From positions 1-32,083 of the forward strand of contig JASJCJ010000084.1 of assembly GCA_030066045.1 (NCBI GenBank): a stretch of DNA of 32,083 nucleotides. The letters run 5' to 3'. Made by a program: the position numbers and the translations under genes. Source of the DNA: Calothrix sp. MO_167.B12 (GTDB lineage: Bacteria > Cyanobacteriota > Cyanobacteriia > Cyanobacteriales > Nostocaceae). Of the stretch, positions 14,324-29,536 are shown piece after piece. The first letter of the stretch is position 1. Each line of letters begins with the position of its first letter. The notes under the pieces were generated by a model. That model did no database searches. It saw only the letters and a list, made by a program, of their open reading frames with translations, and was not told the DNA's origin.

Positions 14324-14959
14324 ATGAACCCACCAGATACCCGCAGATACGCCCCTGCAACCCAACGCAACCGGGAACCCATCCTAGAAATAATCCAACA
14401 AGTCTTACCACCCCAAGGCACGGTTTTAGAGATATCTAGCGGTACAGGAGAACACGCCGTTTTCTTTGCCCCTCGTTTAAGTCCCCGTACTTGGCTACCA
14501 TCCGAACCCGATCCGCGATCGCGTGAAAGTGTGGTAGCTTGGATAGAACATTACCCCGCAGATAATCTCCGCCTTCCCCTGAATATTGATGTTCGAGCTA
14601 CAGTTTGGTCAGTGGAGTCAGATGTATTCTTAAAATCAGTTCCCCCAATTCATGCCATAGTCAATATTAATATGATTCATATTGCCCCATGGTCCGCTTG
14701 TTTGGGACTCATGGCAGGTGCTAATCGTATTCTCCCATCTGGCGGCATTCTATATTTATACGGTCCCTATAAGCAAGGTGGGAAACATACAGCTCCCAGT
14801 AATGCCGCTTTTGATGATTCTTTACGCGCCCAAAATTCTGAATGGGGAGTGCGGAACCTGGAAGATGTAGTAGCAGCAGCCAATGAACAAAACTTGACTT
14901 TGTTGAGTACCCATCAAATGCCAGCAAATAATCTGTCGGTGGTTTTTCAACGAGGATAA
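14324..14959 (+). CDS. DUF938-type SAM-dependent methyltransferase
   Basis: This 211-residue protein matches the DUF938 branch of class I methyltransferases. The conserved N-terminus RRYAPATQRNREPIL is followed by the SAM-binding loop LEISSGTGEHAVFFA (about residues 35-49), the acidic strand end SEPD, and NINMIHIAPW, characteristic of the family. The C-terminal YGPYKQGGKHTAPSNAAFD segment also fits. A soluble methyltransferase is expected; the substrate is unknown. The ATG at 14324 lacks a good Shine-Dalgarno. It is followed by a heptad array and no obvious partner gene. Confidence 0.85.
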   Translation: MNPPDTRRYAPATQRNREPILEIIQQVLPPQGTVLEISSGTGEHAVFFAPRLSPRTWLPSEPDPRSRESVVAWIEHYPADNLRLPLNIDVRATVWSVESDVFLKSVPPIHAIVNINMIHIAPWSACLGLMAGANRILPSGGILYLYGPYKQGGKHTAPSNAAFDDSLRAQNSEWGVRNLEDVVAAANEQNLTLLSTHQMPANNLSVVFQRG

Positions 14960-19867: not shown

Positions 19868-20325
19868 GAAAAATATCAAAGAGCGTCGGCGTTATCCAGT
19901 AGGGTGGGCATTGCCCACCTTACCCTTATTGAGAAGGTGCAAGATATGTGTAAGAAAAAGAGCATCGGCGTTATGCTAAAAGCGCTCCGCACCGAGCCAT
20001 ATTACTGGATGGTGCGTTACACTTTGCGGTAACACACCCTACGTGTTTTTCAAAAATCAAATAGTAATCCTATCCAATTAAGGGAAAGGGCACGGCGTGG
20101 GTCAGATTATTGCACATGGGAAAATATTGTAGATGCCGTGCCCCTACAGGATAATTTATTTTTTGGTATTCCTTGGGGAAAAACTCCGGTTCTCCAGACG
20201 GATTAGCTTAAAATCACCTGCCAATTCGTATATTTACCTTCCTCACAAGTTCCTCAAATTTTTGACCTATAAATGACGTTGGGGTCAAAGCAAGTCCTCG
20301 AACAACGTCATTAAAGCAGGTGAAT
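19868..20325. other. repeat-rich spacer before the diaphorase operon
   Basis: No gene is seen. The stretch holds a hairpin at 19899-19923 (core GGTGGGC-ATT-GCCCACC), two copies of AGAGC(G/A)TCGGCGTTAT (near 19880 and 19958), a palindromic repeat ending in ACACACCCTAC near 20040, a long-spaced inverted repeat GGGCACGGC / GCCGTGCCC (about 20088-20141), and a perfect 10-bp inverted repeat just before the operon (20272-20312). Confidence 0.6.
20272..20312 (+). promoter_or_regulatory. 10-bp inverted repeat upstream of the diaphorase operon
   Basis: AATGACGTTG (20272-20281) and CAACGTCATT (20303-20312) are perfect inverted repeats with 21 bases between, ending 13 bases before the ATG. They could form a leader hairpin that would sit against the ribosome binding site, or serve as two half-operators about three helical turns apart. 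No regulator is identified. Confidence 0.4.
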
Positions 20326-21477
20326 ATGACGGTAAAAAACTTACAAATCAAAGATAAGGTAATCGTTGACCGTCAAGATTTTCAACAATTATTTGATGTT
20401 TTGCAGCAACAGGAGTATGAATTAGTTGGTCCTACCATTGTAGAGGGTGCGATCGCCTATGAGACTATCTCTGCGGTGGAAGACTTGCCCATTGGTTGGA
20501 CGGACGAACAAGATGGCGGTACTTATCGCCTCAAACCAAGGTCAGATAAGGCACTATTTGGTTATGCCGTTGGTCCACATTCCTGGAAAAAATACCTGTT
20601 TCCGCCACGGTTACAACTGTGGAAAGCAGAACGCCAGGGTCAGGAGATGAAAATTACCACACCTGAACCGGAAATTCCCAAACGAGCATTTATCGGGGTG
20701 CGTGCTTGTGAATTAAATGCGATCGCTATTCAAGATCGGGTATTTCTCCAAGGAGAAGCTGTGGATTTCCACTACCAAACAAGGCGCGATCGGGTATTTA
20801 TTGTTGCCGTCAATTGCTCCCAAGCTGGAGGAACTTGTTTTTGTGTGTCTATGAATACAGGTCCCCAAGTAAAGACGGGTTTTGATTTAGGGGTAACGGA
20901 AATTATTGATGGGGATCAACACTACTTTGTGGTGGAAGTTGGGAGTGAGTCAGGTGCAGAGATACTGGGTAAAATTGCCCATAAGTCTGCCACAGAGCAG
21001 CAACAACAGCAAGCAATGGAAGTTGTGGCTGCAACTGCCAAGCAGATGGGGCGTACTATGGATACCCAGAATATTAAAGAACTTTTATACAATAATATTG
21101 AACATTCCCGTTGGGATGATGTGGCAAATCGCTGTCTTACCTGTGCTAACTGCACTATGGTTTGTCCCACCTGCTTTTGCTCTACCGTAGAAGATACCAC
21201 CGATTTAACTGGGGACAATGCCGAACGCTGGCGACATTGGGATTCCTGCTTCACTATGGATTTTTCCTACTTACACGGTGGTAGTGTACGTTCCAGTGCC
21301 AAATCCCGTTACCGTCAATGGATGACCCATAAATTGGCTAGTTGGATGGATCAGTTTGGTACATCTGGCTGTGTGGGTTGTGGACGTTGTATTACTTGGT
21401 GTCCCGTGGGAATAGATATTACCGCAGAAGTTAAGGCAATTCAGGACAGTCAACCGCTGCGCGGAAGTCAAAAGTGA
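20326..21477 (+). CDS. sulfhydrogenase/hydrogenase-type beta subunit, 4Fe-4S (HyhB/AsrA-like)
   Basis: This 383-residue soluble iron-sulfur protein matches beta subunits of group 3b hydrogenases (sulfhydrogenases) and the related anaerobic sulfite reductase subunit A. The conserved IGVRACELNAI motif (about 124-134) and CFCVSMNTGP (171-180) lie in the core domain. Two C-terminal 4Fe-4S motifs follow, C270-x2-C273-x2-C276-x3-C280 and C349-x2-C352-x2-C355-x3-C359. It should relay electrons between the flavin subunit and a catalytic partner. ATG 20326 is preferred over GTG 20320 because AGCAGG lies five bases before it. It heads a probable operon with a cyclic-nucleotide-fold gene and the gamma subunit. 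The stop codon lies where a small repeat is inserted. No catalytic hydrogenase or sulfite reductase gene is in the window. Confidence 0.85.
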   Translation: MTVKNLQIKDKVIVDRQDFQQLFDVLQQQEYELVGPTIVEGAIAYETISAVEDLPIGWTDEQDGGTYRLKPRSDKALFGYAVGPHSWKKYLFPPRLQLWKAERQGQEMKITTPEPEIPKRAFIGVRACELNAIAIQDRVFLQGEAVDFHYQTRRDRVFIVAVNCSQAGGTCFCVSMNTGPQVKTGFDLGVTEIIDGDQHYFVVEVGSESGAEILGKIAHKSATEQQQQQAMEVVAATAKQMGRTMDTQNIKELLYNNIEHSRWDDVANRCLTCANCTMVCPTCFCSTVEDTTDLTGDNAERWRHWDSCFTMDFSYLHGGSVRSSAKSRYRQWMTHKLASWMDQFGTSGCVGCGRCITWCPVGIDITAEVKAIQDSQPLRGSQK

Positions 21478-21530
21478 GCCATTGCGGTGGACGGGTTCCC
21501 CGGCATAAAGCAAATGGCGAACTCCGAAGG
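21477..21530. repeat. 54-bp repeat insertion at the 3' end of the beta-subunit gene
   Basis: The direct repeat AGTCAAAAGT flanks this segment (21467-21476 and 21531-21540). Inside are inverted arms GCCATTGC and GCAAATGGC. The insertion begins within the TGA stop codon of the upstream gene, so it helps define the C-terminus. Confidence 0.45.
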
Positions 21531-21554
21531 AGTCAAAAGTCAAAAGTCAAAAGT
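21531..21554. repeat. AGTCAAA heptad array, 3.4 copies
   Basis: Three exact copies of AGTCAAA and part of a fourth follow the 54-bp insertion in the first spacer of the diaphorase operon. Confidence 0.75.
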
Positions 21555-21708
21555 AGGTCAAATTTAGATCAACAAATCAAAACTATGACCAAACATTAAT
21601 CGGTATCAAGCCCCCAAATTCTATTTGTGGAGGTGGAAAAGATTTTCCCCTTAACCCTTGCCTCTCGATTTATCAATGGGGAAATTGTTAGCACAGCACA
21701 AAAGTGCA

Positions 21709-21713
21709 GGAGG
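21709..21713 (+). promoter_or_regulatory. stranded Shine-Dalgarno (GGAGG)
   Basis: GGAGG, within AGGAGG-like sequence, lies 72 bases before ATG 21786 and has no start codon at normal distance. Removing nine of the ten heptads that follow would place it about nine bases from the ATG. It is therefore probably the original ribosome binding site of the downstream gene. Confidence 0.45.
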
Positions 21714-21714
21714 C

Positions 21715-21784
21715 TAACTGATAACTGATAACTGATAACTGATAACTGATAACTGATAACTGATAACTGATAACTGATAACTGA
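21715..21784. repeat. STRR array: ten exact copies of TAACTGA
   Basis: Seventy bases are exactly ten copies of TAACTGA, ending one base before ATG 21786. The heptad contains TAA and TGA, so stops occur in every frame and translation cannot enter from upstream. The perfect identity of all ten copies suggests a recent or unstable expansion. Confidence 0.95.
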
Positions 21785-21785
21785 A

Positions 21786-22262
21786 ATGGCTACACCTACC
21801 CCTACCCTTGCTCCCGTATTGAGAGAACACAGTTTCTTTCAAGGTTTAAAACCAGAATATATCGACCTATTAATTGAATGTGCTGCCAATGTTCGTTTTA
21901 ATGCCGGAGAATTTATTTTCCGCCAAGGAGAGCCAGCGAATAGATTTTATTTGATTCGTCATGGCAAGGTTGCAGTAGAAATTAGTAAACCCGCTCAACA
22001 ATCCATTGTGATTAAAACTCTGACAGATAATGACGTTTTGGGCTGGTCTTGGTTATTCCCCCCCTATGAATGGCATTATGACGCACAGGCATTGGAATTG
22101 ACAAGAGCGATCGCTCTTAATGCTCAATGTCTGCGGGGAAAATGCGATCGCGATCCTGCATTGGGTTATGAGTTGATGCAACGCTTCTCTTATGTAATGT
22201 TAGATACCCTGCAAGCAACTCGATTGCAACTTTTGGATCTCTATGGCTTACCTAATAGATAA
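21786..22262 (+). CDS. cyclic-nucleotide-binding-fold protein without DNA-binding domain
   Basis: This 158-residue protein is a single cNMP-binding-type beta barrel: HSFFQGLKPEYIDLL, AGEFIFRQGEPANRFYLIRHGKVAVEI (about 40-66) and a C-terminal helix. There is no helix-turn-helix, so it is not a CRP-type transcription factor. The usual phosphate-binding cassette with its conserved Arg is replaced by LGWSWLFPPYEWHYDAQA (about 85-102), so cAMP binding is doubtful. It sits between the beta and gamma diaphorase genes on the same strand and may be an accessory or sensory subunit; that is inference. The start ATG follows directly on ten TAACTGA heptads, with the only good Shine-Dalgarno 72 bases away. 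Confidence 0.85.
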   Translation: MATPTPTLAPVLREHSFFQGLKPEYIDLLIECAANVRFNAGEFIFRQGEPANRFYLIRHGKVAVEISKPAQQSIVIKTLTDNDVLGWSWLFPPYEWHYDAQALELTRAIALNAQCLRGKCDRDPALGYELMQRFSYVMLDTLQATRLQLLDLYGLPNR

Positions 22263-22288
22263 TTCATAATTCATAATTCATAATTCAG
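22261..22288. repeat. AATTCAT heptad array x4
   Basis: Four heptads (three AATTCAT, one AATTCAG) begin within the stop codon of the cNMP-fold gene and fill part of the spacer before the gamma subunit. Confidence 0.85.
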
Positions 22289-22356
22289 AAAGTTTCAGAT
22301 TTAGTCTGGGTTTGAATTTGCATCTACCGCCTTATTTTCGGGAGTTAATATCAAGT

Positions 22357-23220
22357 ATGACAACAACTAGCAGAGTCGGGGAAGTTCTATTGCAAACAGA
22401 CCCTATGGTTCCTCATATCTATCGGGTACAGCGAAATCGTAGGGAAACCCATGACATCTTTACCTTGGAATTAGAACCAGTATCAGGGGTAGAAGCTCTA
22501 ACATTTGCCCCTGGTCAATTTAATATGCTCTATGCTTTTGGTGTGGGTGAATCTGCCATCTCTATTAGTGGTAATGCTGGTATAAAAAATAAAATTATAC
22601 ATACCATTCGCCGGGTGGGGACTGTTACAACTGCCCTGGGAAAATTGAAAAAGGGTGACACACTTGGTGTTAGAGGTGCCTTTGGTAGTTACTGGCCCAT
22701 GCAGGTAGCGGAGGGGAATGATGTCATATTTGTGGCTGGTGGTATTGGATTGGCACCACTGCGTCCGGCTATTTATCATGTGCTTGCCAACCGGGAAAAA
22801 TACGGCAAGGTAGCCATATTATTTGGAACTCGCACCCCTAATGATATTCTATTTAACCGGGACTTACACAAGTGGCGAACGCGTTGGGATACTGAAGTTT
22901 TACTCACCGTGGATCGGGCAGAACCGGGATGGAAAGGGAATGTGGGAGTAGTCACCCACCTAATTCGCCGTGCTCAATTCGATCCCCTGAATACCACCGC
23001 CATGATTTGTGGACCGGAAATTATGATGCAATTTACTACAGTAGAATTACTGAAAAAAGGCATGAGTGCAGATAATATTTATATTACTATGGAACGGAAT
23101 ATGAAATGTGCGATCGCTTTTTGTGGTCACTGTCAGCTAGGTCCGAAATTTATCTGCAAAGATGGGCCTGTATTCCGGTATGACAACATTAAGTTCTGGT
23201 TTGACCAAAGGGAATTTTGA
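22357..23220 (+). CDS. sulfhydrogenase/hydrogenase-type gamma subunit, FAD and 2Fe-2S (HyhG/AsrB/PyrK-like)
   Basis: This 287-residue flavoprotein has a ferredoxin-reductase-like FAD domain (APGQFNMLYAFGVGESAISISG, about 51-72), an NAD(P)-binding domain (FVAGGIGLAPLRP, about 125-137) and a C-terminal 2Fe-2S site, C251-x4-C256-x2-C259-x7-C267. That arrangement is shared by sulfhydrogenase gamma subunits, sulfite reductase subunit B and PyrK. It would exchange electrons between NAD(P)H and the FeS beta subunit. ATG 22357 has GGAG about twelve bases upstream and fits the family start; a TTG 15 codons earlier is less likely. It is the third gene of the probable operon. Normally delta and alpha (NiFe) subunit genes follow, but here the next gene is unrelated. 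Confidence 0.85.
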   Translation: MTTTSRVGEVLLQTDPMVPHIYRVQRNRRETHDIFTLELEPVSGVEALTFAPGQFNMLYAFGVGESAISISGNAGIKNKIIHTIRRVGTVTTALGKLKKGDTLGVRGAFGSYWPMQVAEGNDVIFVAGGIGLAPLRPAIYHVLANREKYGKVAILFGTRTPNDILFNRDLHKWRTRWDTEVLLTVDRAEPGWKGNVGVVTHLIRRAQFDPLNTTAMICGPEIMMQFTTVELLKKGMSADNIYITMERNMKCAIAFCGHCQLGPKFICKDGPVFRYDNIKFWFDQREF

Positions 23221-23342
23221 GAAACATGATTTTATCCCGTAGGGAACATCGACAATCTACTGGATTATAGAGTAATTTTAACCGTGCCGTGCCCTTGGTG
23301 CGATCGCTTGGGTTATAGAATAGACCTCTGGTGGAAAAGAAT

Positions 23343-23371
23343 GTAGAGACGTAGCAATGCTACGTCTCTAC
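23343..23371. repeat. 13-bp perfect hairpin with AAT loop
   Basis: Arms GTAGAGACGTAGC (23343-23355) and exact complement (23359-23371) close an AAT loop. It shares its outer GTAG/CTAC ends and GC-AAT-GC centre with other hairpins in the window. Confidence 0.85.
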
Positions 23372-23505
23372 AAGGGTTTTGGTGCTCCGCATATTTAATT
23401 TCCAACAGAAGTCTAATAATTATAATCGCGCCGTGCCCTTTGTGCGATCGCTTCTCTCCACCTTACACTTAGGGATTTCCAAGTTTTAAAATATCCCCAC
23501 ATTAA

Positions 23506-23528
23506 GGGCGCACGCAATGCGCCCCTAC
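23506..23528. repeat. GGGCGCA-type hairpin repeat
   Basis: GGGCGCA and TGCGCCC surround CGCAA, followed by CTAC. The same sequence is found at 12793-12815 and, inverted, three times in the tandem array at 31632-31949. Confidence 0.85.
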
Positions 23529-23663
23529 AAATGTACTGTTCTGTTTGGGATAACGTATTTTTTGGTATTCCCTTATTTAAAACTTCAGTTCGGGACTTAC
23601 GCATATGCCCATGTAATTAAAGTTCTATTACAATATCTGTAATGTGTATCTCAGTATTGGCTA

Positions 23664-26600
23664 ATGACTGAGGAAGAATTGCTACAGGTAATTGAACAAG
23701 CAGCAAGGGAGGGGGTGACAGAATTAGACCTTTCTGGTAAGAAGTTGACGGCTTTACCCCCTGAGATTGGCAAGCTGACTCAACTCAAAAAGCTGATTCT
23801 CGGTAAATATGAGTATAACGAAAAGGGAAATATCCTTAGTGCTATCGGTAACAACCTGAGAGATTTACCAAGGGAAATTGGATTACTGAATCATCTTGAA
23901 GAACTTCATATAGTCAAAAATCAACTAAGTAGTCTGCCAGAGGAAATATTCCAACTCACCAATCTGCAAGCCCTCTACCTCGGCAACAATCAATTAAGCA
24001 GTCTGCCAGAAGAAATATTCCAACTCACCAATCTGCAAGCACTCTACCTCGGTGGTAATCAACTAAATAGTCTGCCAGAAGAAATATTCCAACTCACCAA
24101 CCTGCAAGTCCTCTACCTGGAAAGTAATCAACTAAGTAGTCTGCCAGAAGAAATATTCCAACTTACCAATCTAAAAACTCTATACCTCTGGGGCAATCAA
24201 TTCAGCAGTCTGGCAGTGGAAATAGGACAACTTACTAACCTGCAAACTCTCAACCTCGGTAGTAATCAACTTAGTAGTTTGCCAGAGGAAATATTCCAAC
24301 TCACCAATCTAAAAACTCTCTACCTCTGGGGCAATCAACTCAGCAGTCTGCCAGAGGAAATAGTCCAACTTACCAATCTCCACAGTCTCTACCTCAACAA
24401 CAATCAACTCAGCAATCTGCCCAGGAAATTTGGACAACTCACCAACCTGCAACACCTCCGCCTGGGTTCCAATCAACTCAGCAGTCTGCCAGAGGAAATA
24501 TTCCAACTCAGCAATCTGCGAGTCCTCGACCTCTACAAAAATCAATTGAGTAGTTTACCAGAAGAAATAGTCCAACTAACTAAACTTGAAAATTTGGAGT
24601 TGCGTGGAAACCCAGTCCCTATTCAACCAGAGATTCTGGGTTCAAAGGATATAGATGAACATCCGGGTGATGTGAAGGAAATCCTTGATTTCTATTTTCG
24701 GGCACAAGATCCTAATGAAACTGAACCCTTCTACGAAGCAAAATTATTGATTATTGGGGAAGGAGGAGCGGGGAAAACTTCTTTAGCTAAAAAAATTGAA
24801 GATGAAAGCTACGAACTCAACTCTGATGAGAAATCAACGGAAGGTATTGATGTCATCCAGTGGAAATTCCCCCTACCCAATGGTAAAGAGTTTCGCGTTA
24901 ATATTTGGGATTTTGGTGGACAGGAAATCTACCATCAAACCCATCAATTTTTCCTCACCAAACGTTCTCTCTATGCCTTAGTTGCTGATACCCGTAACGA
25001 AAACACTGACTTTTATTGGTGGCTGAAAGTTGCCGAACTTTTAAGCGATAATAGCCCAATTTTGATTGTAAAAAACGAAAAAAAAGACCGTCAATGCGAA
25101 GTAAACGAACGCCAGTTACGGGGAGAGTTTACTAATTTAAAAGAAGTTTTAGCAACTAATTTAGCAACAAATCGCGGTTTAGCAAAAATAAAAGAAGAGA
25201 TTCAAAACTACATCACCAGACTTCCCCACGTTGGTGATAAATCACCTTTACCAAAACTCTGGGTGAGAGTCCGTTTAGCCATCGAAAATTATTCCCGCAA
25301 TTACATCGACCTTTATGAATATTACCAACTTTGTGAAACGAATAATTTAACAAACCGCAAAGATATGCTACAGCTGAGTCGCTATTTACATGACCTCGGC
25401 GTTTGTCTGCACTTCCAAGATGATGCTACACTCAAACATTATGTAATTCTCAAACCAGAATGGGCTACAACTGCGGTTTACAAGGTTTTAGATAATAAAA
25501 CCGTCAAGCAAAATTTGGGGTGTTTTAGCCAAGAGGAACTTGCAGATATTTGGCAAGATAGGGAATATGCCGATATGCGAGATGAACTGCTGCAATTAAT
25601 GATGCGGTTTAAACTCTGTTACCAAATTCCTAACCGTCCCGGTAACTACATTGCACCACAATTACTCAATATCGAACAATCCAACTACACTTGGGATAAA
25701 TCCTATAATCTCGTCTTGCGTTATGAATACAAATTCATGCCCAAAGGTATTCTCATCCGCTTCATTGTAGAAACACACCCTTGGATTGAACAGCAAAAAC
25801 TTGTTTGGAGAAGTGGCGTTATTCTTAATAAAGACCAAACTCGCGCCGAAGTCATTGAAAACTACAATCAACGGGAAATTAAAGTTAGGGTAGCCGGAAA
25901 TCGTAAAAAAGAATTACTCGCAGTTGTCACCCACGAACTAGAAAAAATTCATAGTTCTTTTGAACGCTTGCAATATCAAACTTTGGTTCCCTGTAACTGT
26001 CAAGAATGTGCAGGAAATGAAAATCCTTATACTTATCCTTTAGAAAATTTGCGTAGACGTTTAGAAAAGGGTAGATATCAGATTGAATGCGATAAAAGCT
26101 TTGAAATGGTGGATGTGCGGAGATTGATTGATGATGTGAATTTACCACTTCAGCAGGAATATGGGGAATATAAAGCCCAAGACACAGCATTACAACGGGA
26201 ACTGGAGACGAAGAGAAACGAATCTTTTAACATAAATCAAACTACTACAAATCAAACCCCTATGAAATACCAAGATTTTCAAATATTAGTTGATCACAAT
26301 CACAATATTCGCGTTTCCTCAGAACAAGGTGAGGTTTCGGGTGAATTACATTTGTCAAAGAACCAAATTAACCTGACTTTAAAATTAATTGAGTCGCAAC
26401 AAACAAATAGTGAATTGCTCAAAGCACTAGGTGGTGAACTTTACCAAGCACTTTTCCCCAACCAAATTAACGCTCGCTTCCACGCTACAATGGCAGGCGC
26501 ACAAGCAGATAATTACAATGTCCGCTTGCGGTTAATATTTGAATCTCCCGAATTAGCCGCTCTCCCTTGGGAATTTCTCTATGACGAGGGAACCAACACC

Positions 26601-27314
26601 TTTTTAGCCAACAACACCCAAACCGTACTCTCTCGCTACATTGATGTGCCCCTGCAAAAACGCGACATCAAAGCCGTTAACCTACCCCTAAAAATTCTAT
26701 TAGTCATCTCTAGTCCTACTAACTTAGATCCATTAGACACAGGGAAGGAAGAACAACTCATCCGCGAAGCACTGAAAAAACACATAGAAGCTGGTCAAAT
26801 AGAGTTAGATGTATTACAAGAAGCGACTAGGCGCGAAATTCAGCAAAAGCTGCGAGAAAAGCCTTACAATGTATTTCACTTCATCGGTCATAGTATCTTT
26901 CAAAATAATAAAGGCTACATTGCCCTTGTAGATGGAAATGGCGAAGCGAAATTATTAGACGATGAAACTTTCGCCAACTTCTTTTTAGGTAACAATAACT
27001 TAGGATTAGTGATTCTCAATTCCTGCCAAGGTGGAACCGTATCTTCCAACCAAACATTTGCAGGTATAGCACCAAACCTAGTGCGTCAGGAAATACCCGC
27101 AGTAGTCGCCATGCAATATCCTATCGAAGACGACACCGCCAAACTTTTCGCCGATGAATTTTACCGCACCCTCGCATTAGGCTATCCCGTAGATGCAGCC
27201 ATCCAGACAACCCGCAACGCTATTTCCATGGAAGTGGGATTAGATAAATGTGATTTTGCCACACCAGTACTGTATATGCGAGCTAAGGATGGAATCATTT
27301 TGAATGGATTGTAA
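23664..27314 (+). CDS. LRR-ROC-COR-CHAT protein (Roco GTPase fused to caspase-like protease)
   Basis: This intact 1216-residue protein has four parts. Residues 1-317 are about twelve leucine-rich repeats, ten of them consecutive 23-residue LSSLPEEIFQLTNLQ-type units (88-317), a probable recognition surface. Residues about 357-530 are a ROC GTPase: P-loop GEGGAGKT (365-372), DFGGQ (416-420) and an unusual NEKKD (471-475) where NKxD is expected. Residues about 540-860 are a COR-like dimerisation region ending in a C777-C779-C782-C809 cluster that may bind zinc. Residues about 867-1215 form a CHAT domain, a caspase-like cysteine protease, with HFIGHS (H1076) and LNSCQGG (C1121) as predicted catalytic pair. 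No membrane segment is seen. Roco proteins are GTP switches and CHAT proteases act in bacterial conflict or cell death, so a sensor-switch-effector role is inferred. Trigger and substrate are unknown. Confidence 0.92.
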   Translation: MTEEELLQVIEQAAREGVTELDLSGKKLTALPPEIGKLTQLKKLILGKYEYNEKGNILSAIGNNLRDLPREIGLLNHLEELHIVKNQLSSLPEEIFQLTNLQALYLGNNQLSSLPEEIFQLTNLQALYLGGNQLNSLPEEIFQLTNLQVLYLESNQLSSLPEEIFQLTNLKTLYLWGNQFSSLAVEIGQLTNLQTLNLGSNQLSSLPEEIFQLTNLKTLYLWGNQLSSLPEEIVQLTNLHSLYLNNNQLSNLPRKFGQLTNLQHLRLGSNQLSSLPEEIFQLSNLRVLDLYKNQLSSLPEEIVQLTKLENLELRGNPVPIQPEILGSKDIDEHPGDVKEILDFYFRAQDPNETEPFYEAKLLIIGEGGAGKTSLAKKIEDESYELNSDEKSTEGIDVIQWKFPLPNGKEFRVNIWDFGGQEIYHQTHQFFLTKRSLYALVADTRNENTDFYWWLKVAELLSDNSPILIVKNEKKDRQCEVNERQLRGEFTNLKEVLATNLATNRGLAKIKEEIQNYITRLPHVGDKSPLPKLWVRVRLAIENYSRNYIDLYEYYQLCETNNLTNRKDMLQLSRYLHDLGVCLHFQDDATLKHYVILKPEWATTAVYKVLDNKTVKQNLGCFSQEELADIWQDREYADMRDELLQLMMRFKLCYQIPNRPGNYIAPQLLNIEQSNYTWDKSYNLVLRYEYKFMPKGILIRFIVETHPWIEQQKLVWRSGVILNKDQTRAEVIENYNQREIKVRVAGNRKKELLAVVTHELEKIHSSFERLQYQTLVPCNCQECAGNENPYTYPLENLRRRLEKGRYQIECDKSFEMVDVRRLIDDVNLPLQQEYGEYKAQDTALQRELETKRNESFNINQTTTNQTPMKYQDFQILVDHNHNIRVSSEQGEVSGELHLSKNQINLTLKLIESQQTNSELLKALGGELYQALFPNQINARFHATMAGAQADNYNVRLRLIFESPELAALPWEFLYDEGTNTFLANNTQTVLSRYIDVPLQKRDIKAVNLPLKILLVISSPTNLDPLDTGKEEQLIREALKKHIEAGQIELDVLQEATRREIQQKLREKPYNVFHFIGHSIFQNNKGYIALVDGNGEAKLLDDETFANFFLGNNNLGLVILNSCQGGTVSSNQTFAGIAPNLVRQEIPAVVAMQYPIEDDTAKLFADEFYRTLALGYPVDAAIQTTRNAISMEVGLDKCDFATPVLYMRAKDGIILNGL
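23925..24614 (+). repeat. ten 69-bp LRR-coding tandem repeats
   Basis: Ten consecutive 69-base units encode 23-residue LRRs with almost the same protein sequence, and long stretches are identical at the DNA level, as in the repeated segment for LPEEIFQLTNL. This indicates growth by unequal recombination within the gene. Confidence 0.9.
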
Positions 27315-28537: not shown

Positions 28538-29536
28538 ATGGTACAAATATCAAAATCTGCAAGTCTTTTTTCATTCTTCTTTCCTAATGGATTTATGGAT
28601 ACCATCACTGGTGGAGATGGCAATGATACCCTGGTGGGGACTAATGTTGACGAGCTGATTGAAGGTAAAGGTGGAAACGATATACTCAAGGGTGAAGGGG
28701 GTAACGATGCCCTCATAGGTGATACTGGGCAAGATACCCTTGAGGGAGGGTCTGGTAATGACACGCTCTATGGTGAATCTGCTTTTGGAGGTGGTTTAGC
28801 CGTCACCGGGGATTCTTTCGTGTATGCTTCAGGCAGCACTTATGGAAGACAAAGCGATAATTATTTAGATGGTGGCAAGGGAAATGATAAACTCGACGGT
28901 GGGAATGGGAATGATACTCTCATCGGTGGGGATGGCGATGATACGATGTTTGGAGGTTCAGTGGCTTCCTTAGTCGAGACACATGTCTATGACCCATATG
29001 GTGAAATTAATTGGTCTACTTCTGGTAATGATGTCCTTGACGGTGGGAATGGAAATGATGTCCTTGTAGGCGCAGCAGACAACGATACCTTGATAGGTGG
29101 ACAGGGAAATGATATCCTCAACGGTGGTTTTGGCAATGATTCTCTTCTAGGTGGGGATGGAAATGATTCTCTTCGAGGTGGAACTGACAATGACACTCTC
29201 AGAGGGGGTAATGGAGCAGATGTCTTTAGTTTCTCAATTCTTTTCCCACGTGATAGTGCCCCTCCTTTTAGGACCTTTGTCTTTGATCCAAACTATGATC
29301 CAAACTATGTTGCTCCAAGTTTGCCACCAAAGCCTCAACGAGGTATTGACACTATCGAGGACTTTAATTCTGCGGAGGGTGACAAGATTGTAATAGATAG
29401 TTCTGGGGAAATTTCAATCAGCCAGTTTTCCTACAATCAAGATACAGGTGCTCTCTTGTTTGAAAACACACAGTTTGCTCAGCTACAGGCTGGCCTTGAT
29501 TTCAGTGTAGAGCAAGACATTACCTTCGGAATATAG
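28538..29536 (+). CDS. RTX calcium-binding (hemolysin-type repeat) protein
   Basis: This 332-residue protein consists mostly of GGxGxDxLx nonapeptide repeats in three blocks (about residues 25-85, 108-146 and 165-230), which bind calcium and fold into a parallel beta roll outside the cell. The C-terminal part, GIDTIEDFNSAEGDKIVID followed by an FSYNQDTGALLFENTQFAQL segment, is the usual non-repeat end that carries the type I secretion signal. There is no N-terminal signal peptide, as expected for type I export, and no enzymatic domain, so it may be a surface or matrix protein. No ABC exporter or membrane-fusion gene is nearby. A 12-base direct duplication gives DPNYDPNY near residue 250. ATG 28538 lacks a clear ribosome binding site. 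Confidence 0.88.
   Translation: MVQISKSASLFSFFFPNGFMDTITGGDGNDTLVGTNVDELIEGKGGNDILKGEGGNDALIGDTGQDTLEGGSGNDTLYGESAFGGGLAVTGDSFVYASGSTYGRQSDNYLDGGKGNDKLDGGNGNDTLIGGDGDDTMFGGSVASLVETHVYDPYGEINWSTSGNDVLDGGNGNDVLVGAADNDTLIGGQGNDILNGGFGNDSLLGGDGNDSLRGGTDNDTLRGGNGADVFSFSILFPRDSAPPFRTFVFDPNYDPNYVAPSLPPKPQRGIDTIEDFNSAEGDKIVIDSSGEISISQFSYNQDTGALLFENTQFAQLQAGLDFSVEQDITFGI

Follow-up and report, generated by a model that had tools for sequence, protein, structure and literature searches.

A single-chain LRR-Roc-COR-CHAT protein of Calothrix as a candidate NLR-type receptor with an exchangeable output

A stretch of 32,083 nucleotides from the filamentous cyanobacterium Calothrix sp. MO_167.B12 (contig JASJCJ010000084.1, positions 1 to 32,083; hereafter the window, meaning this whole stretch) encodes a protein that joins leucine-rich repeats (LRRs), a Roc GTPase domain, a COR region and a CHAT domain in one chain. 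We propose, with a probability of roughly 0.6, that it is a one-protein NLR-type danger receptor built on a Roco switch, in which other output domains can take the place of CHAT. Sequences and a structural model support this through the domain architecture, the conserved His and Cys, a caspase-like fold, purifying selection, the cassette character of CHAT, the exchange of tails among related Rocos, a pair of genes with EAD1 and variation in LRR number. From known families we infer control by GTP through Roc-COR and proteolysis by CHAT; a trigger, a substrate, cell death and a role in defence are presumed.

Interest in Rocos comes chiefly from LRRK2 and its link to Parkinson's disease, with bacterial Rocos serving as structural models, and we know of no established cellular job for the bacterial proteins. 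If our proposal is right, it would add a GTPase-based NLR analogue in filamentous bacteria. Should the wider receptor class considered below also be real, prokaryotic Rocos would gain a function, and the Roco switch that underlies LRRK2 would have an ancient role in immunity. A His-Cys protease as the output of a bacterial Roco would also be a testable readout of Roc-COR signalling, through proteolysis, growth arrest or phage plating.

Domain architecture and conservation

The gene is a single intact open reading frame (ORF) on the forward strand, with an ATG start and without an internal stop. Pfam places LRR, Roc, COR-A, COR-B and CHAT in this order, every domain above its curated cut-off. 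An earlier note on this DNA had described a fusion of LRR-Roc-COR with CHAT in one chain and had named the LRRs, the P-loop GEGGAGKT at residues 365-372, DFGGQ, COR, CHAT, M867, H1076 and C1121; the ORF, the Pfam domains and the motifs bear out the fusion and each of these positions. The features are as follows.

23664..27314, + strand: LRR-Roc-COR-CHAT gene, 1216 amino acids (ORF and Pfam)
23706..24614, + strand: LRR sensor, about residues 15-317 (several Pfam LRR models, LRR structures)
23915..24577, + strand: 69-bp tandem array of 9.6 copies, each unit one 23-residue LRR (Tandem Repeats Finder)
24741..25079, + strand: Roc GTPase domain, residues 360-472 (PF08477, 7e-24)
24756..24779, + strand: P-loop GEGGAGKT, residues 365-372 (motif)
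24909..24923, + strand: switch II DFGGQ, residues 416-420 (motif)
25074..25085, + strand: G4 position NEKK, not NKxD, residues 471-474 (alignment)
25251..25667, + strand: COR-A, residues 530-668 (PF16095, 1e-49)
25707..26135, + strand: COR-B, residues 682-824 (PF25497, 3e-50)
26136..26261, + strand: linker with one helix, residues 825-866, beyond which tails diverge (low predicted local distance difference test score, pLDDT, except in the helix)
26262..27311, + strand: CHAT cassette, residues 867-1216, starting at a former start codon (PF12770, residues 921-1187, 2e-32)
26889..26891, + strand: H1076, predicted catalytic His (invariant)
27024..27026, + strand: C1121, predicted catalytic Cys (invariant)

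With Roc followed in tandem by COR (PF08477, PF16095 and PF25497, all above cut-off), the protein belongs to the Rocos. The lowest E-values among solved structures were those of LRR-only proteins, while the best match covering LRR, Roc and COR was PDB 8r4b (1e-67, residues 58-777) together with 6hlu (1e-65), which we take to be the Chlorobium tepidum Roco. The order of LRR, Roc and COR in these structures is the same over residues 58-777; the window protein differs from them by the effector domain after COR. Of the nucleotide motifs of Roc, the P-loop and DFGGQ are intact, and G4 reads NEKK. NTPase matches of the window protein in Pfam were of the Roc/Ras/Arf type only, none of them to the NACHT or NB-ARC domains of STAND NTPases.

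The ratio of nonsynonymous to synonymous substitution rates (dN/dS) against six orthologues was 0.07-0.16 for Roc, 0.12-0.22 for COR and 0.11-0.24 for CHAT, values that indicate purifying selection on all three parts. A match running from the Roco part through CHAT was found in at least 4 of 291 genomes of the order (G000, G272, G152 and G187), a lower bound with two candidates scored per genome. In our named collection, a single ORF carries Roc, COR and CHAT at 14 of 80 loci, two with a truncated CHAT and two being identical copies of each other. The search for the same architecture suggested earlier thus showed it to recur in further genomes, and this recurrence together with the low dN/dS argues that the architecture is not a product of chance.

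Predicted fold and the His-Cys dyad of CHAT

An AlphaFold2 model of residues 820-1216, built from a 45-sequence alignment (pLDDT 80; predicted template modelling score, pTM, 0.79), suggests a caspase-like fold for the CHAT part. Its best Foldseek matches were SAVED-CHAT (6.8e-10), Csx29 of type III-E CRISPR (~2e-9) and separase (4e-9), with caspases from 7e-5. A profile of the CHAT alignment matched a single PDB sequence, again SAVED-CHAT (6.5e-14), in which the GH pair and the Cys share columns with those of the window protein. In the model numbering, H1076 (257) comes after the strand 251-255 and C1121 (302) after the strand 296-300, and the linker before CHAT is mostly unordered apart from its one helix.

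Both residues were retained in 49 of 49 other CHAT rows spanning them and are also invariant in alignment A1. This count started from 52 rows, taken from matches at E 1e-8 in the fetched loci: the window itself, two rows too short to include the site and these 49, with L055 and L088 overlapping within one gene. The motif at the His reads GHG in 36 of 50 rows and GHS in the window protein, a form also present in 12 of the 49 others. The CHAT domain (PF12770), the modelled fold and a dyad that is invariant and matched to SAVED-CHAT columns place the protein among the putative CHAT proteases, and by analogy with SAVED-CHAT, Craspase and separase it may act by proteolysis. The earlier note would have given up its reading if homologues routinely lacked the two residues, and neither was ever lost in the rows examined. 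It had also expected them to be juxtaposed in a structural model; the caspase-like fold and the placement of each residue after a strand support this in part.

CHAT as a cassette

Residues 867-1216 are 75-83% identical to other genes of the window genome (G000). Three complete copies align from a Met equivalent to M867: C280 (L074) is a stand-alone CHAT gene with two codons between the last stop and this Met, C319 (L075) continues from CHAT into DUF7019, and C66 (L076) into AAA_35. A further copy, C233 (L077), resembles C66 and is cut by a contig end. As CHAT occurs alone or before other domains from the same Met, the guess that a once-separate protein had been fused at M867 is right, and CHAT behaves as a cassette. 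The window genome (7.7 Mb) holds 35 CHAT matches and zero EAD1 matches.

M867 might be a second start, by which one gene would give both the fused receptor and free CHAT. In 88 related Rocos, the stretch 36-50 residues beyond COR-B holds Met at about three times the rate of the other positions among the first 140 of the tail (52 of 1200 residues against 147 of 9975), 30 of these 52 being followed by S or T, and some Roco tails carry a strong Shine-Dalgarno (SD)-like stretch. However, the capture of several effectors together with their start codons would produce such an enrichment and accounts for it. M867 of the window has no SD-like stretch (+2.2 kcal/mol), the SD excess across all tails is weak (p 0.044), and loci L175 and L177 have no Met at this position. 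An internal start was rejected as the main explanation from Met position, SD strength and conservation, and we consider it highly improbable.

Exchange of outputs after COR

Homology to the window protein ends at about residues 825-870 in most relatives among the matches listed. To describe what follows, we used a set of Rocos from fetched sequences resembling the window protein, after dropping ORFs that were C-terminally cut, contained N, lacked most of Roc-COR or had identical cores (e.g. L201, L177 and L174). The 153 closed ORFs became 149 after collapsing at 99% (CHAT from 17 to 13), with tails of TIR (49), CHAT (13) and the death-adaptor-like domain EAD1 (7). The remaining tails are hydrophobic segments, as judged from hydropathy, and small helical domains, with 15 outside any cluster and two ORFs tailless. 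Labels besides CHAT, TIR and EAD1 are our own clusters; for TIR and EAD1, the Pfam check was limited to representatives. By eye, an LQxEL-type stretch precedes different tails at the linker.

On a Roc-COR tree of 138 cores, the distribution of CHAT requires at least nine changes, five of them forced by starred branches; all labels together require 34, or 23 without the states 'other' and 'none'. A more careful tree of 40 rows, picked from the 138 after viewing the quick tree and with a bootstrap that was not fully settled, requires ten changes for CHAT. A single clade of CHAT-Rocos was rejected on this tree by the approximately unbiased test (p-AU 1.4e-7; 1.2e-4 without the far copy L081). The window's own clade of 11 rows (98/93) contains EAD1 six times, CHAT four times and TIR once (L226, where the frame-broken continuation is CHAT). 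Loci L184 and L224 have, by eye, the start of the CHAT cassette for roughly twelve residues before EAD1 takes over, resembling chimeras at the junction. These patterns in the sequences indicate that the part after COR has been swapped repeatedly among related Rocos.

At L226 (5100-8586) Roco and TIR are followed by CHAT in two overlapping frames, possibly a frame-broken tail with two effectors. Four other loci (L121, L122, L130 and L150) have tails of 40-60 residues with a DNxGGDxVGRDK-like motif, which precedes helical domains in other tails; these short tails presumably resemble bacterial amyloid signalling motifs.

A split form probably coupled by EAD1

In passages of PMC7159879, EADs are described as adaptors by which effectors are recruited to a conflict-system core, and the same effectors can be fused to the core directly. 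In Calothrix sp. PCC 7103 (L198), 131 bases separate a Roco-EAD1 gene from a downstream EAD1-CHAT gene in the same orientation; the CHAT of the latter is 79% identical to that of the window. Pfam finds EAD1 in both genes (9.9e-25 and 4.5e-23), and the two EAD1 domains are 74% identical. CHAT thus appears to be delivered in this genome by EAD1-EAD1 pairing instead of fusion, with the binding of the two domains presumed from known families, and the window protein would be the form in which CHAT is fused straight to the core. An EAD shared by core and effector, the mark of EAD-coupled systems, is present in PCC 7103; the window protein has no EAD.

Variation of the LRR sensor

Two loci of Mastigocoleus testarum BC008 (L175 and L177) are equal in 872 of 872 residues of the part that starts shortly before Roc and runs to the C-terminus; their LRR parts differ by 161 residues, or seven units of 23. 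As their flanks are 99.3-99.4% identical, they are probably alleles. Nine genes complete at both ends, that of the window among them, have open frames of 1119 to 1527 residues. Repeat number is therefore the fast-changing part of these proteins, as would suit a recognition surface.

Genomic context

In Nostoc ATCC 53789 a Roco-CHAT gene lies on plasmid pNsp_j, 3 kb from a gene for a pentapeptide-TIR-EAD1-CHAT protein and surrounded by a vWA protein, PIN genes, a recombinase and ParA/ParB. Locus L178 is nearly identical to this copy, and ParA-like genes adjoin both L178 and L186. When 15 Roco-CHAT loci were compared with flanks of at most 5 kb (more in the window, less where contigs end), the only other family that two of them had in common at E 1e-10 was this ParA-like one (L178 and L186), recognised by its motif. 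Two pairs of loci, L174/L180 and L198/L199, are 100% identical copies.

The window copy is chromosomal in look. In Calothrix MO_192.B10, positions 4473-6044 of L249 are syntenic with 23222-27311 of the window and lack LRR-Roc-COR (about 23480-26269 of the window are missing). The gap is flanked by two similar short stretches, and the CHAT frame, 96% identical, stays open. No in-frame ATG, GTG or TTG stands before it, and the first start codon comes 28 codons in.

Twelve phage records had a match, mostly to the LRRs, and among the ten of them listed none covered 80% of the protein.

Comparison with known systems

A 2019 review (PMC6337361) places every prokaryotic Roco identified by then in an LRR-RocCOR-only group. 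Eukaryotic ROCOs with a C-terminal peptidase are described for group 3 of brown algae and for other SAR organisms in parts of PMC11378527, where the authors propose immune receptors with LRR diversity. These share with the window protein a ROCO followed by a peptidase; they differ in that the peptidase is of IPR009003 rather than a caspase-like CHAT, and the same parts of PMC11378527 describe no exchange of EAD1 cassettes. The window protein itself, unlike those algal ones, ends in CHAT; IPR009003 we take to be trypsin-like.

The EAD-coupled systems with vWA-MoxR or GAP1-GTPase cores have, in the sections of PMC7159879 and PMC8195603 that treat them, the same exchangeable outputs (caspase-like, TIR and EAD1), fused or coupled by EAD1. 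There the Roc-like AP-GTPase is an associated or effector-position domain and not the core, whereas LRR-Roc-COR is the core of the window protein. No vWA, MoxR, VMAP or GAP1 was found by Pfam among the 18 other window ORFs scanned, a search limited to the window and not extended to the rest of the genome. SAVED-CHAT (PDB 8tl0) and Csx29/TPR-CHAT have the same CHAT fold, the same His and Cys positions and the same principle of a sensor-controlled effector protease; they lack LRR-Roc-COR and their sensors differ, being for a cyclic nucleotide in SAVED-CHAT and for CRISPR RNA in Csx29. Animal and plant NLRs combine an LRR sensor, a nucleotide switch and an exchangeable output. The window protein would work like them, but with a Roc GTPase replacing the STAND ATPase. 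The likeness to an NLR-type receptor claimed in the earlier note is hence strengthened by tail exchange, the EAD1 split form and the variation in LRR number, with the qualification that the protein is an analogue by virtue of its Roc switch and not a STAND member.

Searches of the open-licence literature, which are weak evidence, showed no report of Roco-CHAT or of tail-exchanging prokaryotic Rocos among the papers listed. The parts and the coupling principle are already known; the Roco receptor core and its system of output exchange are a new variation on them.

Proposed mechanism and alternative explanations

In the mechanism we propose, the LRR array, variable in repeat number, would bind a trigger, and in response Roc-COR would change its shape or dimer state in a nucleotide-dependent way. 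The tethered CHAT would be freed or clustered by this change and would then cleave one or more cell proteins, leading to growth arrest or cell death, a response most likely directed at phage or at invading elements of another kind. A role in defence or cell death is suggested by the company that the core keeps (TIR, EAD1 and CHAT), by plasmid carriage and by LRR variation. More broadly, and at somewhat less than even odds, the LRR-Roc-COR proteins of filamentous cyanobacteria could form a large modular class of immune receptors, with hypervariable LRRs and a single junction after COR where outputs are swapped in cassette form.

Several observations weigh against a danger receptor of this kind. 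The EAD1 gene pair was seen in one genome only (as two identical copies), and other EAD1 Rocos compared have no EAD1 effector within the fetched loci, so that a partner, if any, would lie elsewhere. EAD1 gave no match in the window genome, where the same search gives 24 and 37 in two relatives. CHAT is hardly clustered on the 40-row tree (134 of 500 shuffles were as low), and each fusion may therefore be short-lived. The G4 position is atypical, with NEKK in the window and NEKQ or similar in close relatives, while distant Rocos mostly have NKxD; guanine specificity may thus be altered. Structural evidence is also limited: Foldseek TM-scores were moderate, at 0.41-0.57 over the query among the top 25 (SAVED-CHAT, Csx29 and separase kinds) and 0.45-0.57 for most of the best matches, and the predicted placement of the domains relative to one another is uncertain (pTM 0.55). 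The window copy lies among housekeeping genes, with psaA/psaB at 6-10.7 kb, 13 kb away, and redox and metabolic genes. No conserved neighbour or candidate substrate was found within about 5 kb of the compared Roco-CHAT genes, and PADLOC gave no substantial match in the 18 other window ORFs scanned. A further point concerns HetF, the sole CHAT model matched in NCBIfam and the nearest name there (7.5e-35; 120 bits, far below the cut-off of 1200).

This last match bears on the possibility that the protein is a developmental or cell-division regulator, whose HetF-like CHAT would act on division or heterocyst proteins while LRR-Roc-COR senses an internal cue. HetF is likewise a cyanobacterial CHAT protein and is presented in parts of PMC8406250 as a putative protease with a required active site and as part of the divisome in Anabaena, with a role in division and heterocysts; its CHAT is combined with transmembrane and TPR segments and not with LRR-Roc-COR. 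A regulator of this kind fits poorly with the patchy occurrence across the order, the plasmid-borne copy in Nostoc, the absence of the Roco part at the syntenic L249 locus and an output swapped for TIR or EAD1 in close relatives, and we judge it unlikely. Just as unlikely, though not mutually exclusive with the danger receptor, is an element-borne addiction or inter-element conflict protein that secures the retention of its plasmid or acts against competing elements, instead of protecting the cell from phage. The genes around the pNsp_j copy and the ParA-like genes beside L178 and L186 speak for it; the window copy, by contrast, has the chromosomal-looking neighbours named above, part of them syntenic in L249.

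Less probable still is a binding or scaffolding role for CHAT without protease activity. According to a passage of PMC7159879, about 70% of the caspase domains that take the effector position in vWA components lack catalytic activity, and the GHS of the window departs from the common GHG, but His and Cys are kept in every other row spanning them and GHS is shared by a dozen of these. The explanation to which we give the least weight is a decaying, recently formed fusion without function. Broken or truncated relatives are common (e.g. L176, L186, L187, L226, L238, L247 and L251) and the syntenic L249 lacks the Roco part, yet dN/dS is low across Roc, COR and CHAT, and an untruncated CHAT shares one ORF with Roc and COR at 12 of the 80 named loci (one identical pair included).

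Other features of the window and of matched records

A defence island at the window was considered and rejected. Eighteen other ORFs were examined by Pfam and 18 by PADLOC, with two weak PADLOC matches only, PycTIR (0.0045) for a cNMP-binding protein at 21786 and mad2 (4e-5) for a DUF938 protein at 14324. Genes at 20320-23220 encode 4Fe-4S dicluster, cNMP-binding and NAD/Fe-S oxidoreductase proteins, which by look are redox or hydrogenase-type accessory subunits. The spacer 5' of the Roco-CHAT gene (23209-23494) contains short interspersed repeat units with GCGATCGC, of which there are several copies in L249. Downstream, 28538-29536 encodes an RTX calcium-binding repeat protein. Among the phage records, MT836801.1 (8.7 kb, unannotated) has a CHAT match at 980-2071 with 34% identity (8e-48).

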